Shown here: piece by piece, positions 8,380 to 16,357 of the stretch
Numbering within the stretch: the first letter of the stretch is position 1
How the letters are laid out: each line of letters opens with the position of its first letter
NCBI GenBank assembly: GCA_021201735.1
Contig: JAJQEJ010000034.1
Span: forward strand, 1-64,000
DNA from: Oscillospiraceae bacterium
Lineage (GTDB): Bacteria; Bacillota; Clostridia; Oscillospirales; Oscillospiraceae
Reading direction: 5' to 3'
Length of the DNA stretch: 64,000 bases
The notes under the pieces: model-generated
What the model saw: the letters and a program-made list of their open reading frames with translations, nothing else
What the model was told of the DNA's origin: nothing
Databases searched by the model: none
Position numbers and translations under genes: made by a program

Positions 8380-9738
8380 TTACAGCCCTGCAGCGATGGC
8401 TTTTAGTGCAATTGCACATTCCAACCTCTTTTTTTCGAGCACACAACCGAGCTCATATGGCGTTTCAATGTCCCCATTGACCGAAAGATTCGACGCGCTG
8501 CAGCCCCCGCTGCAATAAAAACGCGCCCAGCAGGTTCTGCACGCCACGCGCGTATCGATGTTGAGGGATGCAAATCTGGAGGAGAGTGCCCGGTCAAATG
8601 TCTGCTCATAGAGACTGCCGAGCTTGTATGCCTCGTTACCCACGAATTGATGGCAGGGGTAGATATCCCCCTCCGGCGTAATGGCGACATACTCGCACCC
8701 CGCCCCGCAGCCACGCAGACGCTTGATCACACACGGCCCCTGAGAAAGGTCTACGTTAAAGTGAAAGAAATTCACATCGGGGTGATCCCGCAGCACAAGC
8801 GCCAGCTTTTCATACTCCGCCATAATCGCCTCTGCGTCCTCCTGACGTAGCGCATAGGGATCGTCCTCCTTCCCCACCACCGGCTCGACAGAGACATTCT
8901 GGAAGCCGAGCGACGCGATGTGCATCACGTCGGCGGCAAAATCGGGGTGTAGGCGGGTGAAGGTGCCGCGCAGATAATAGTCCTTATCCCCACGTCCCGC
9001 CACCAGCTTTTGAAATTTGGGAACGATGGTGTCGTAAGAGCCCGTCCCGCTGATTGTGCGGCGCAGGTCGTCGTTTACCTCCGGCCGGCCGTCGAGTGAC
9101 AGGACGGCATTTGACATCTCACGGTTAATGTATTCGATGTTTTCATCATGAAGCAATAGCCCGTTTGTGGTGATGGTGAATCGAAACTGCTTTCCGCACT
9201 CCGCTTCCCTGCCGCGGGCATACGCCACCGTTTTCTTGACGGTATCCATCGCCATGAGCGGCTCGCCGCCGAAAAAGTCGATCTCGATATTCCGCCGGTT
9301 CCCAGAGCGCGCAATCACGAAATCAATCGCCTTCTTTGCCGTTTCAAAATCCATCGTCATCCGCTTACCCGTGCCAAAGTCACCCGTGGACGCAAAACAG
9401 TATTGACAGCGCAGATTGCAGTCGTGCGAAACATGCAGGCACAGCGCTTTAATGAGCGCCGACTGCTGCATGGACGCCGCCATATCGCGGTCGATATAGT
9501 CGTCGGTCTCAAACAGCAGCCCCTCCTGCGCGAGTACGCGCAGCTCCTGCCAGCACTCCTCCAGCGCCTCCGGCGGATACTGCGCGAGCGCTGCCAGCAC
9601 CGCCGGGGGAACATGCTCGTCCATCGGCGGCACCACCCGCTGCATGAGCGCAAAGCTCATTTCATCCAGCACGTGTACCGCGCCGCTGTTGGAATCCACA
9701 GCAATATATTCACCAAGCGCCTCAAAGGTATGTACCAT
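8380..9738 (-). CDS. scfB: Radical SAM SCIFF (ranthipeptide) maturase
   Basis: Radical SAM/SPASM enzyme that installs cysteine sulfur-to-carbon thioether cross-links in the SCIFF peptide encoded just upstream. An N-terminal peptide-recognition (RRE-like) domain covers about 1-95. The [4Fe-4S] motif CNLRC-QYC supplies Cys107, Cys111 and Cys114 (CxxxCxxC). Downstream are the GGEP motif and a C-terminal cysteine-rich SPASM region (CGAGCEY, YPCHQF, CRTCWARFYCSGGC) for auxiliary clusters. The length of 452 residues fits the family. The start has GAGGTG eight bases ahead. Direct adjacency to a six-cysteine precursor secures the assignment. Confidence 0.95.
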   Translation of the reverse strand: MVHTFEALGEYIAVDSNSGAVHVLDEMSFALMQRVVPPMDEHVPPAVLAALAQYPPEALEECWQELRVLAQEGLLFETDDYIDRDMAASMQQSALIKALCLHVSHDCNLRCQYCFASTGDFGTGKRMTMDFETAKKAIDFVIARSGNRRNIEIDFFGGEPLMAMDTVKKTVAYARGREAECGKQFRFTITTNGLLLHDENIEYINREMSNAVLSLDGRPEVNDDLRRTISGTGSYDTIVPKFQKLVAGRGDKDYYLRGTFTRLHPDFAADVMHIASLGFQNVSVEPVVGKEDDPYALRQEDAEAIMAEYEKLALVLRDHPDVNFFHFNVDLSQGPCVIKRLRGCGAGCEYVAITPEGDIYPCHQFVGNEAYKLGSLYEQTFDRALSSRFASLNIDTRVACRTCWARFYCSGGCSASNLSVNGDIETPYELGCVLEKKRLECAIALKAIAAGL

Positions 9739-9764: not shown

Positions 9765-9796
9765 AGGAAAGGGTGGGATTTACCCCACCCTTTCCT
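9765..9796 (-). promoter_or_regulatory. Intercistronic hairpin between scfA and scfB
   Basis: AGGAAAGGGTGGG (9765-9777) pairs perfectly with 9784-9796 around a six-base loop. In the transcribed (minus) direction no T-run follows, so it is more likely a partial terminator or 3'-end stabiliser. Either would let the short precursor be made in excess over its maturase. On the plus strand seven T's follow, but no plus-strand gene ends here. Confidence 0.7.
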
Positions 9797-9805
9797 GAAA
9801 TTTTT

Positions 9806-9949
9806 TTACTTTTTATTCTCGCACTTCTGGTTCGCAACCGTGCAGGAAGTCTTGCAGGCAGATTGACAGGAGGTCTGGCACTCCCCACATCCGCCGTGCG
9901 CGGCGCTTTTCTTCAGCGTTGCGCCATTGAGCGTCTTTATATGCTTCAC
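9806..9949 (-). CDS. scfA: SCIFF ranthipeptide precursor (six cysteines in forty-five residues)
   Basis: A 47-codon gene with a GTG start (9949-9947) behind GGAGGG, seven bases away. The peptide begins (M)KHIKTLNGATLKK. Its C-terminal half holds six cysteines in the pattern CGEC, TSC, SAC, TSC, QKC, the hallmark of SCIFF peptides found across Clostridia. The acceptor threonine/serine residues alternate with the cysteines. The product should be modified by the adjacent radical SAM enzyme. It has its own strong promoter directly upstream. Confidence 0.95.
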   Translation of the reverse strand: MKHIKTLNGATLKKSAAHGGCGECQTSCQSACKTSCTVANQKCENKK

Positions 9950-9980
9950 TTCTCGTCCCTCCGATCTCTATAGTGCTACT

Positions 9981-10009
9981 ATTTTAGCACATCTAACACG
10001 TTAGTTCAA
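9981..10009 (-). promoter_or_regulatory. SigA-type promoter for scfA
   Basis: Minus-strand TTGAAC (10009-10004) and TAAAAT (9986-9981) with a 17-base spacer, about 35 bases before the scfA start. It directly abuts the stop codon of the upstream membrane-protein gene. Confidence 0.8.
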
Positions 10010-10453
10010 TTATTTTCTTCTTTTTTTCCGCGGTTTTGATTGCTTTGTTCCCAAAAGGCCCGCAATTGCGCCGCCGCAGAGACAGGCGCAGCAGGTGCCG
10101 ATTGTACTGCCGCTGCCGCCGGCATTGGCATTGCTGTTTGCCGCGAGCATACCGCCCAGCGTGCCGATGGTGAGCAGAATCAGGAAAAACACCACCCCTG
10201 CGCCTAGCCCAACCAGTAGCGTGCGTGTCGCGCAGCGCTTAACCGCCATATGCCCGCCGAAAATTCCGCCGAGTACGCAGGCAATCAGCGCCGTCTGGTG
10301 CATAGCTCCCTCTCCCACGACACCCCTGGAGATCAAAATTGATCCGACTAAGAGCACCAAAATGCACACAATCATCGCCGCCACGCCACCGAGCACAATC
10401 CACGCCGCGTAGTAGACCAGATTTTGCCCCTGTTCCGCCTCTGTTTTTTGCAT
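10010..10453 (-). CDS. TIGR04086-type membrane protein of the SCIFF neighbourhood
   Basis: Protein of 147 residues with four hydrophobic segments at about 13-42, 52-72, 78-103 and 115-135, ending in a basic tail (KPRKKRRK). Size, topology and position between yajC and a SCIFF gene match the TIGR04086 family, whose function is unknown. Its small-residue-rich second half (GCCACLCGG-like) contains several cysteines. The ribosome-binding site GGGAGGGTG lies inside a strong hairpin (10458-10506), which suggests translation is restrained. Confidence 0.75.
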   Translation of the reverse strand: MQKTEAEQGQNLVYYAAWIVLGGVAAMIVCILVLLVGSILISRGVVGEGAMHQTALIACVLGGIFGGHMAVKRCATRTLLVGLGAGVVFFLILLTIGTLGGMLAANSNANAGGSGSTIGTCCACLCGGAIAGLLGTKQSKPRKKRRK

Positions 10454-10528: not shown

Positions 10529-10873
10529 TTATCGGGCTTTGTTGACGTCAGTCTCAGTTCCCTTGGTGGACACAGCCCAGCGGGTAAATTCAACGCGAAC
10601 CCGGTCAGCTCCGGTCTCGAGCACGATTGTGTCGTCTGTCACATGGCACACGGTGCCTACGATACCGCCGATTGTGGTAATCTGATCGCCGATGGCGAGT
10701 TCAGAGCGCATTTTCGCGGCTGCTTTCTTACGCTTATTCTCCGGTCGAATCAGGACAAAGTAAAAAAGCGCAATGAGAACGACAAAGATAATCACAATGG
10801 AAAAACTGCTGCCGCCGCTTGATTCCGCATCCCCCGTGCTGGATAATACTGTGGTTGCTAGCTGTGTCAACAA
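10529..10873 (-). CDS. yajC: Preprotein translocase accessory subunit YajC
   Basis: Small single-span membrane protein associated with SecDF-YidC. Residues about 25-45 form the membrane helix (IVIIFVVLIALFYFVLIRP), followed by the family's RPENKRKK motif and a KOW-like beta domain (IGDQITTIGGIVGTV). The start is taken as TTG at 10873, because GGAGG lies eight bases before it. That gives 114 residues, the normal size; the longer frame adds about 57 atypical residues. The tgt-yajC order is common in bacteria and supports the call. Confidence 0.9.
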   Translation of the reverse strand: MLTQLATTVLSSTGDAESSGGSSFSIVIIFVVLIALFYFVLIRPENKRKKAAAKMRSELAIGDQITTIGGIVGTVCHVTDDTIVLETGADRVRVEFTRWAVSTKGTETDVNKAR

Positions 10874-10973
10874 TACAATCGCCTCCGACAAAATTCTAAA
10901 ATAAGATTGCGTGTCAATATTATAACGGCTGGGACGATGTTTGACAAGCCTTTTCCTGCGATTTCGGAAAACT

Positions 10974-12104
10974 TTACAACCGCTGCACCAGTTTTCCTGT
11001 ATATTCTTCCCGAAAGGCGGAAAACGCCCCCGTGTCAAGCGCAAGCCGCATCCGCGCCATCAGGCTGTTATAAAAATGCAGATTATGCAGCACCGCAAGG
11101 CGCATGGCGAGCATCTCCCCCGCCGCAAACAGGTGGCGCAGGTAGGCGCGGGAATAAGAGCGGCAGAGCGGACAGGCGCACGTCTCGTCCACCGGGCGGG
11201 TGTCCGCCTTATACTTCTCATTCTTGATGTTCATGGTTCCGTTCCATGTAAAGAGCTTCGCGTGGCGCGCGTTGCGGGCGGGCATGACGCAGTCAAAAAA
11301 ATCAATGCCGCGCGCGACCGCCTCAATCAGATTGGACGGCGTACCCACCCCCATCAGATAGCGCGGCTTCTCCTGCGGCATATGCGGCTCCACCACGTCG
11401 ATGATGTCGTACATCACCTGTGTCGGCTCCCCCACCGCAAGCCCGCCGATGGCGTAGCCGTCGCATGGGATTTTCGCCGTCTCCTGCATGTGCCACGCGC
11501 GCAGGTCTGGAAAGGTCGCGCCCTGATTGATCCCAAAGAGCATCTGCTGCGGATTGACTGCGTTTACCGCGACCTTTTGCCGCTCCTGTTCCGCTCTGCA
11601 GCGCTGGAGCCAGCGCAGGGTGCGCTCACAGGACTGTTTTGCGTATTCGTAGGTCGTCGGATTCTCCACGCACTCATCAAACGCCATGGCGATGTCGCTG
11701 CCGAGATGCGCCTGAATGCGCATTGACTCCTCCGGGCCCATAAAAATACGCCGCCCGTCAATATGAGAGGCAAAGGTTACGCCCTCCTCGCTGATTTTCC
11801 GCAACCCCGAGAGGGAGAACACCTGAAACCCACCACTGTCGGTCAGAATCGGGCCGTCCCAGTTCATGAAGGCGTGCAGGCCGTTCATCTGCGCAATCAG
11901 CTCGTCGCCGGGGCGCAGATGGAGATGATAGGTATTCGAAAGCGCCACCTGACAGCCGATCTGCCGCAGGTCATGCGCGGAGACAGCCCCCTTGATCGCC
12001 CCCTGTGTCGCCACATTCATGAATACCGGCGTCTGCACCGCTCCATGCGCGCAGGTAAAGCGCCCGCGCCGGGCGCGCCCCTCCGTTTTCAGCAGCTCAA
12101 ACAA
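10974..12104 (-). CDS. tgt: tRNA-guanine transglycosylase
   Basis: Exchanges guanine-34 for the queuine precursor preQ1 in tRNAs for Asp, Asn, His and Tyr. The length of 376 residues is typical. Visible motifs are DSGGFQVFSL (substrate-binding), the active-site region MAFDECVENPTTYEY, GYAIGGLAVGEP, and the C-terminal zinc site CACPLCRSYSRAYLRHL. The start codon appears to be TTG at 12104, with GGAG a few bases upstream. It lies 21 bases after queA, giving a queuosine pathway pair. Confidence 0.96.
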   Translation of the reverse strand: MFELLKTEGRARRGRFTCAHGAVQTPVFMNVATQGAIKGAVSAHDLRQIGCQVALSNTYHLHLRPGDELIAQMNGLHAFMNWDGPILTDSGGFQVFSLSGLRKISEEGVTFASHIDGRRIFMGPEESMRIQAHLGSDIAMAFDECVENPTTYEYAKQSCERTLRWLQRCRAEQERQKVAVNAVNPQQMLFGINQGATFPDLRAWHMQETAKIPCDGYAIGGLAVGEPTQVMYDIIDVVEPHMPQEKPRYLMGVGTPSNLIEAVARGIDFFDCVMPARNARHAKLFTWNGTMNIKNEKYKADTRPVDETCACPLCRSYSRAYLRHLFAAGEMLAMRLAVLHNLHFYNSLMARMRLALDTGAFSAFREEYTGKLVQRL

Positions 12105-14941: not shown

Positions 14942-14950
14942 GAAAAAAAT

Positions 14951-15122
14951 GCAAGATAGAGGTTGCGGTTTTCATCAGTAGCGCCGGGAGGGGTTCGGTA
15001 CCCCGAGGAACAGCTGTGAAAGGGAATGCCGCCGAAGGGAGCTTTCAGCCGAAAGTCTGTCTCCCTGGGCAAGTGGTTAACAGCCGCTTGACTGTCGCCG
15101 GTTTTGGTGGAGTGCTGTCTGC
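14951..15122 (+). promoter_or_regulatory. Lysine riboswitch (L box)
   Basis: The aptamer carries the conserved L-box pieces in order: GATAGAGGTTGCG, TCAGTAG, GGAATGCCGCCGAAGG, CTGGGCAAGTGG and CTTGACTGTCGCC. The P1 helix pairs 14951-14959 with 15115-15122, with one bulged A. A terminator hairpin follows at 15182-15220, ahead of asd. Lysine binding should favour the terminator and shut off asd-dapA-dapB. The identification follows from the known L-box consensus; no folding program was run. Confidence 0.95.
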
Positions 15123-15181
15123 TTTTGTTATATGGTGTGCAGCGGCAAGCTTGTCTTTGCCGTCTCTGACATTATAGTACA

Positions 15182-15274: not shown

Positions 15275-16357
15275 ATGAAAAAGTATCAGGTTGGCGTCAT
15301 TGGCGGAACGGGCATGGTGGGGCAGCGCTTTGTCAAGCTGCTGGAAAACCATCCTTGGTTCGATCTTACGGTGATCGCGGCAAGCGCCCGCTCCGCGGGA
15401 AAGACGTATGAAGAGGCGGTCGGCAAGCGCTGGGCCATGCCCACGCCCATGCCGGAAAACGCGAAAAAGATGGTCGTCATGAGCGCGGAGGGGGACGTTG
15501 CGCAAATCGCGTCCATGGTTGATTTCGTCTTTTCCGCCGTCGACATGAAAAAGGAAGAGATTCAGGCGCTGGAAGAGGAATACGCCAAGCATGAGTGCCC
15601 AGTTGTCTCCAACAACTCGGCCCACCGCATGACGCCCGACGTGCCGATGGTCATTCCGGAGATTAATCCGGAGCATCTGGCGGTCATCGCCGACCAGAAG
15701 AAGCGGCTCGGCTCCAAACGCGGGTTCATCGCGGTCAAATCCAACTGCTCGCTGCAGAGCTATGTACCGGCGCTCCACCCGCTGCGCGCGTATGGTGTGC
15801 GCGATGTGCTGGTGTGTACCTATCAGGCGATCTCCGGCTCAGGCAAGACCTTTGAAACATGGCCGGAGATGGTGGATAACGTCATCCCCTACATCGGCGG
15901 CGAGGAGGAGAAGAGCGAGCAGGAGCCGCTTAAAATCTGGGGCAAGGTGGAAAACGGCATCATCGTGAATGCCGATCATCCCTCTATCACGGCGCAGTGC
16001 ATCCGTGTCGCGGTGGCGGACGGACACATGGCGGCGGTTTTTGTCCGGTTTGACAAAAAGCCGGAGCTGGATGAGATGAAGCGGATCTGGGCCTCCTTCC
16101 AAGGCCGCGCACAGGAGCTTCAGCTCCCCTCCGCCCCCAAGCAGTTCCTGCATTACTTTGAAGCAAGTGATCGTCCGCAGACGCGGCTTGACCGCGATTT
16201 AGAGGGCGGCATGGCCGTCTCCATCGGTCGGCTGCGCCCGGATACACAGTATGACTACAAATTTGTCTGCCTCTCACACAATACCCTGCGCGGCGCGGCG
16301 GGCGGCGCGGTACTTCTGGCAGAGCTCCTCTGCGCGGAAGGCTATATGGACCGCTAA
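15275..16357 (+). CDS. asd: Aspartate-semialdehyde dehydrogenase, archaeal/fungal type
   Basis: Reduces aspartyl phosphate to aspartate semialdehyde with NADPH, the branch point to lysine, diaminopimelate, methionine and threonine. The Rossmann motif GVIGGTGMVGQRF begins at residue 8. The catalytic cysteine lies in VKSNCSLQSYVPAL, and QAISGSGKTFETWPEM follows the active site. Length (360) and these motifs match the archaeal/fungal ASADH branch, not the E. coli type. GGAGGG lies seven bases before the ATG. It is the first gene of the lysine-riboswitch operon. Confidence 0.95.
   Translation: MKKYQVGVIGGTGMVGQRFVKLLENHPWFDLTVIAASARSAGKTYEEAVGKRWAMPTPMPENAKKMVVMSAEGDVAQIASMVDFVFSAVDMKKEEIQALEEEYAKHECPVVSNNSAHRMTPDVPMVIPEINPEHLAVIADQKKRLGSKRGFIAVKSNCSLQSYVPALHPLRAYGVRDVLVCTYQAISGSGKTFETWPEMVDNVIPYIGGEEEKSEQEPLKIWGKVENGIIVNADHPSITAQCIRVAVADGHMAAVFVRFDKKPELDEMKRIWASFQGRAQELQLPSAPKQFLHYFEASDRPQTRLDRDLEGGMAVSIGRLRPDTQYDYKFVCLSHNTLRGAAGGAVLLAELLCAEGYMDR

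Follow-up and report, generated by a model that had tools for sequence, protein, structure and literature searches.

The minus-strand interval from 9949 to 9806 of the window (the whole stretch of DNA analysed, 64,000 nt) is, on the evidence of its sequence, a SCIFF precursor gene, scfA, paired with the gene for its maturase, ScfB. We consider it probable that this gene is transcribed from its own promoter, that partial termination behind it leaves precursor in excess over enzyme, and that ScfB joins Cys32 of the peptide to a threonine, the likeliest being Thr34. SCIFF peptides are cysteine-rich clostridial peptides that are cross-linked in other species by a neighbouring radical enzyme, according to the relevant sections of two reviews (PMC8326336, PMC8172795), and scfA is an ordinary member, one more of this known family. 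The features concerned are as follows.

8380..9738, minus strand: scfB, SCIFF maturase, radical SAM/SPASM protein of 452 aa (TIGR03974; PDB 5wgg, CteB)
9765..9796, minus strand: terminator-like hairpin, 13-bp stem, weak T tail TTTCCTAT on the coding strand
9806..9949, minus strand: scfA, SCIFF precursor, 47 aa, GTG start, stop codon inside the coordinates (TIGR03973, PF13165)
9839..9856, minus strand: codons of the published donor Cys32 (9856-9854) and the two disputed acceptors, Thr34 (9850-9848) and Thr37 (9841-9839)
9957..9962, minus strand: ribosome-binding site GGAGGG, read from the sequence, seven bases 5′ of the scfA GTG
9981..10009, minus strand: predicted SCIFF promoter, TTGAAC-17-TGcTAAAAT, 9/12 of consensus plus TG
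10010..10453, minus strand: context gene, TIGR04086/DUF3792 membrane protein by profile matches, only a candidate for pathway membership
10529..11044, minus strand: context gene yajC (TIGR00739, 83.8 bits), domain at residues 80-160 of the listed ORF, start codon unsettled

Precursor gene and start codon

The preliminary description had proposed a minus-strand peptide of 47 residues with six cysteines and a GTG start, directly ahead of a radical SAM maturase, and the ORF is found exactly so, with the maturase gene (9738..8380) on the same strand 67 nt downstream. The TIGR03973 search that it had named as the test of SCIFF identity returned a hit at 83.8 bits, well over its threshold of 50 (E = 5.4e-24), and PF13165 is matched at 86.2 bits, likewise well over its threshold of 27 (E = 1.3e-24). 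The translation comprises a leader, VKHIKTLNGATLKKSAAHGG (residues 1-20), followed by cysteines at residues 21, 24, 28, 32, 36 and 43 of 47. Both hallmarks of a SCIFF locus, six cysteines within some 45 residues and a TIGR03974 maturase close by (here at a spacing of 67 nt), are present; family identity is in this way established at the level of sequence.

The position of the GTG is backed by the leader of CteA (PDB 5wgg_B), with which the scfA peptide aligns free of gaps from residue 1 to Cys21. In a mechanical count over 299 distinct SCIFF domains, a start codon lies exactly 20 codons 5′ of Cys21 in 216 (191 ATG, 13 GTG and 12 TTG), whilst 73 have one up to 4 codons away; in 8 no start codon falls within that range, and the last 2 could not be assigned. 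Because 25 of these 216 domains carry GTG or TTG at the usual codon, the scfA start is a minority but normal one for the family; the GTG to which the preliminary description drew attention is therefore confirmed, but it is not an oddity.

Maturase and gene neighbourhood

ScfB scores 620.1 bits against TIGR03974 in a profile search (cut-off 425), which bears out the earlier designation of the neighbouring enzyme as the SCIFF maturase. No other equivalog exceeded its own cut-off among the 25 of 75 matching NCBIfam families listed, and the score to the exception model for 'ScfB-related orphan' proteins, 548.7 bits, lies under that model's threshold of 855. Both PF04055 and PF13186 are matched, and the CX3CX2C motif reads CNLRCQYC. 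The closest solved protein is CteB (PDB 5wgg; residues 1-447, E = 1.2e-159), with which the C-terminal part of ScfB has nine cysteines in common by our own count on the alignment; these would bind auxiliary clusters.

CteA/CteB of Clostridium thermocellum (thermocellin) is the nearest known system. The leader of CteA matches that of scfA without gaps, the comparison covering CteA residues 1-21, and Cys32, Thr34 and Thr37 stand at the same positions in both peptides, as the reviews describe CteA in part (PMC8326336, PMC8172795). The scfA gene differs in its GTG start, and it is known from the gene alone, its product being predicted. Tte1186a, the partner of Tte1186 in Caldanaerobacter, can be likened to it by description as a SCIFF precursor with Cys32 and Thr37, in the parts of the same reviews that deal with it (PMC8326336, PMC8172795). 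Freyrasin (PapA/PapB, Paenibacillus) is a ranthipeptide, the class predicted for the scfA product and defined by a thioether between cysteine and a beta or gamma carbon, and the PapB model matches ScfB at 262.9 bits. This score is below the PapB cut-off of 340; freyrasin carries six Cys-Asp bonds according to the section of one review devoted to it (PMC8172795), whereas the scfA peptide has no aspartate and so no Cys-X3-Asp. A freyrasin-type assignment was accordingly rejected.

Upstream, yajC is located two genes before the SCIFF gene. SecD was looked for because of this position of yajC; none was found in the scfA-bearing genome, and 31 of 60 genomes, this one included, gave no match at E ≤ 0.001, a result from which no tie to SCIFF is drawn. 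Elsewhere in the window, a lysine riboswitch (89 bits, 14949-15125, plus strand) precedes an ORF at 15275-16357 that by eye resembles aspartate-semialdehyde dehydrogenase.

Cross-linked residues

The donor of the published cross-link is Cys32, and two acceptors are on record. The available portions of the reviews report a Cys32-Thr37 bond assigned in vitro for both Tte1186a and CteA, and a Cys32-Thr34 bond from heterologous co-expression of CteA with CteB; the two reviews, as far as these portions go, leave the disagreement standing (PMC8326336, PMC8172795). Residues were tallied over 312 domain hits in 308 loci, reduced to 299 once identical DNA was removed; these domains had been retrieved through their resemblance to SCIFF, and the tallies are sequence counts with many close relatives among them. 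Thr34 is present in all 299 domains and Cys32 in 298, with serine in the remaining one, whilst position 37 is threonine in 256, glycine in 42 and serine in 1. Cys36 is replaced by leucine or isoleucine in five domains (L248, L253, L264, L288 and L290). At the protein level the 299 domains amount to 254 distinct peptides, 42 of which carry Gly37.

The glycine and threonine forms separate cleanly by maturase. On a FastTree phylogeny of 274 maturases (233 Thr, 40 Gly and 1 Ser), on which long end branches were flagged, the two forms require one change (support 99), as they likewise do on an earlier tree of 182 rows built in the same manner. The Gly37 form occupies a single maturase clade, and four maturase columns divide it from the Thr37 form at ≥ 85 %. 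Since the replacement is one change on the tree, it counts as one event only.

The glycine clade has no threonine at position 37, and Thr34 is the sole threonine common to all 299 domains; conservation thus favours it, without proof, as the most likely acceptor. Its neighbours within residues 29-35 are (nearly) equally invariant, with Gln29, Ser30, Ala31, Lys33 and Ser35 conserved to the same degree over the 299 domains, so that the conservation of Thr34 may reflect recognition rather than chemistry. One could alternatively propose that the two clades differ, with Thr37 taking the bond in its own clade, to which the gene studied here belongs, and Thr34 doing so in the Gly37 clade alone. The Thr37 assignments made in vitro with Tte1186a and CteA, as described in the review sections (PMC8326336, PMC8172795), speak for such a division, as do the clean split on the maturase tree and the four separating columns, which would be expected if the enzymes differ in their targets. 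We regard it as unlikely, given that Thr34 is invariant (299/299 domains) and that, in the same partial accounts, co-expression of CteA with CteB yielded the Thr34 bond (PMC8326336, PMC8172795). Thr34 is accordingly retained as the likeliest acceptor.

An earlier survey of 206 loci, in which L061 and L062 were skipped, had left seven of 204 without a match to the pattern. One of these is L200 (genome G003), where both Cys32 and Thr37 are replaced by serine and the adjoining maturase match extends over residues 1-452 at 44.6 % identity; this SCIFF may be decaying or chemically different.

Promoter

The preliminary description had placed a strong promoter ahead of the gene. A promoter-like site is indeed present at 9981..10009, although its strength, judged by consensus (9/12 plus TG), is moderate. 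Taking the best-scoring site within 110 nt upstream of the SCIFF profile match, with one shuffle per locus, a score of at least 10/13 is reached in 199 of 275 related loci, compared with 12 of 275 base-shuffled copies; the corresponding figures are 220 against 64 for a score of at least 9, and 129 against 4 for at least 11. Enrichment of such sites before SCIFF genes is therefore a property of the relatives at large.

A perfect six-base inverted repeat, GTGCTA/TAGCAC, covers the −10 box of scfA (window 9973-9990) and is kept in the sister locus L008. It is missing in L065, L009, L121 and L123, the last of which has a different repeat over its own −10. The GTGCTA/TAGCAC repeat was not adopted as an operator.

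Hairpin between precursor and maturase

The 67-nt spacer between scfA and scfB folds at −25.9 kcal/mol (z = −3.92) and contains the hairpin at 9765..9796. Amongst relatives, a site was called terminator-like where it had at least six pairs, four G-C, a loop of 3-9 and at least five T in eight. The count covers 255 spacers of 25-400 nt, leaving out 23 of 278 outside this range and the 19 of 297 loci without a downstream maturase, and maturase starts were extrapolated from tblastn alignments. Such a site occurs in 183 of the 255 spacers, where dinucleotide shuffles predict 4.2, and in 5/252 equal upstream stretches, 2/254 stretches inside the maturase and 44/255 spacers read on the reverse strand. 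Both forms of the peptide have it (27 of 35 Gly37 spacers and 156 of 220 others), and it is found in 63 of 101 spacers when one locus is kept per 65 %-identity maturase cluster. An earlier, narrower set gave 140 of 171, with 1.9 expected. The hairpin is not obligatory: 72 of the 255 spacers lack a terminator-like site, and the distance from precursor to maturase is below 25 nt in 18 of 278 cases.

Covariation was assessed in hand-picked near relatives, 26 of 29 references being used. Four of eight consensus pairs show at least one kept pair with both sides changed; RNAalifold assigns a small covariation term of −0.54 kcal/mol, and each of the eight pairs is broken or gapped in 1-5 of the 26 rows. 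The 3′ arm ends in four or more consecutive T on the coding strand in 21 of the 26, the source genome being one of the five without this run.

It is conceivable, though we think it improbable, that the hairpin, rather than serving as an attenuator, takes part in stabilising or processing RNA, or terminates antisense transcription. In the window itself it is the plus strand that has the better T run, and a plain scan lists the hairpin on that strand only; among the relatives, 44 of 255 spacers also pass when read on the reverse strand. Across relatives, however, sites in the coding direction exceed those in reverse (183 against 44), and the coding-strand run of four T in 21 of 26 near relatives, from which the source genome stands apart, likewise argues for termination in the direction of the maturase gene. 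No description of a SCIFF terminator between precursor and maturase was found in the open-licence literature searched.

Partial termination at this hairpin is thus the reading we prefer, and in the source species it would leave more precursor than maturase; enrichment of the hairpin together with that of the promoter suggests such an excess of precursor over enzyme.

Distribution

Related records place the source genome in the Oscillospiraceae near Flavonifractor. Among the 80 of 107 loci kept, the best maturase relative belongs to an Oscillospiraceae MAG (94 % identity) and the best named isolate is Flavonifractor plautii (78 %). The scfA-bearing genome (97 % complete) yielded one SCIFF and one above-cut-off maturase. 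Counting this genome each time, SCIFF is present in 40 of 60 close genomes, 245 of 291 genomes of the class and 246 of 299 of the phylum at E ≤ 0.001 (245 over the cut-off), and none of the 14 control genomes gave a hit in the close, class and phylum surveys. The notion that scfA is a chance cysteine-rich frame beside a radical SAM gene, for which one might cite its shortness and GTG initiation, is refuted by its matches to two curated models, TIGR03973 and PF13165 (E = 5.4e-24 and 1.3e-24), and by the 132 of 135 loci in which SCIFF precedes a match to the same maturase.

Within the bases available, a maturase was not found downstream at 19 of 297 SCIFF loci. Sixteen of these 19 genomes have an above-cut-off maturase elsewhere; of the other three, G296 has a fragment scoring 410.6 bits where a contig ends, G286 (69 % complete) reaches 61.4 bits, and G152 reaches 25.9 bits. 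This last genome is 99 % complete, and its locus, L163, holds a SCIFF above the cut-off (81.7 bits) with no above-cut-off maturase. A further variation is seen in L210 (G063) and L211 (G219), which come from different families: each has two tandem leader-plus-core SCIFF units in one 95-codon stop-to-stop frame, with a maturase match downstream. The tandem ORFs, the conservation of hairpin and promoter, and the Thr37-to-Gly clade are modestly interesting, testable by-products of the comparison.

Proposed working and function

In the scheme we favour, the promoter of scfA would drive synthesis of a short RNA, with a large fraction of transcripts terminating at the hairpin that follows the stop codon and the remainder reading through into scfB, so that precursor would be made in excess over ScfB. 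The enzyme would bind the leader (residues 1-20) and, with S-adenosylmethionine and iron-sulfur clusters, form a bond from the Cys32 sulfur to a threonine at its gamma carbon, Thr34 being the likeliest; for the source species we infer this bond from the conservation set out above. A wider reading may be entertained tentatively, and we stop a little short of favouring it: that the Cys32-Thr34 bond is universal, that Thr37 and Cys36 are dispensable, with a whole maturase clade given over to Gly37, and that a widespread leaky terminator and an own promoter together set a large excess of peptide.

By analogy with other clostridia only, SCIFF probably serves as a regulatory peptide with ties to cell density or sporulation. 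A role in responses to population density comes from one study, in solventogenic clostridia (Chen et al. 2020, as related in parts of PMC8326336 and PMC8102284), and disruption of SCIFF in C. beijerinckii lowered the expression of sporulation genes and raised that of agr, as reported in the portion of PMC8102284 concerned. The wide occurrence of SCIFF is taken as an argument against an antimicrobial function in the pertinent section of one review (PMC8326336).

The value of scfA is comparative, as it adds one SCIFF to what is near-standard equipment of the class (245 of 291 genomes). The natural Gly37 peptides, with maturases of their own, are ready-made variants that can help to settle which threonine is the acceptor. 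Finally, the conserved unit of promoter, gene and terminator predicts an abundant short SCIFF transcript, and may thereby serve as a guide for isolating the native peptide.
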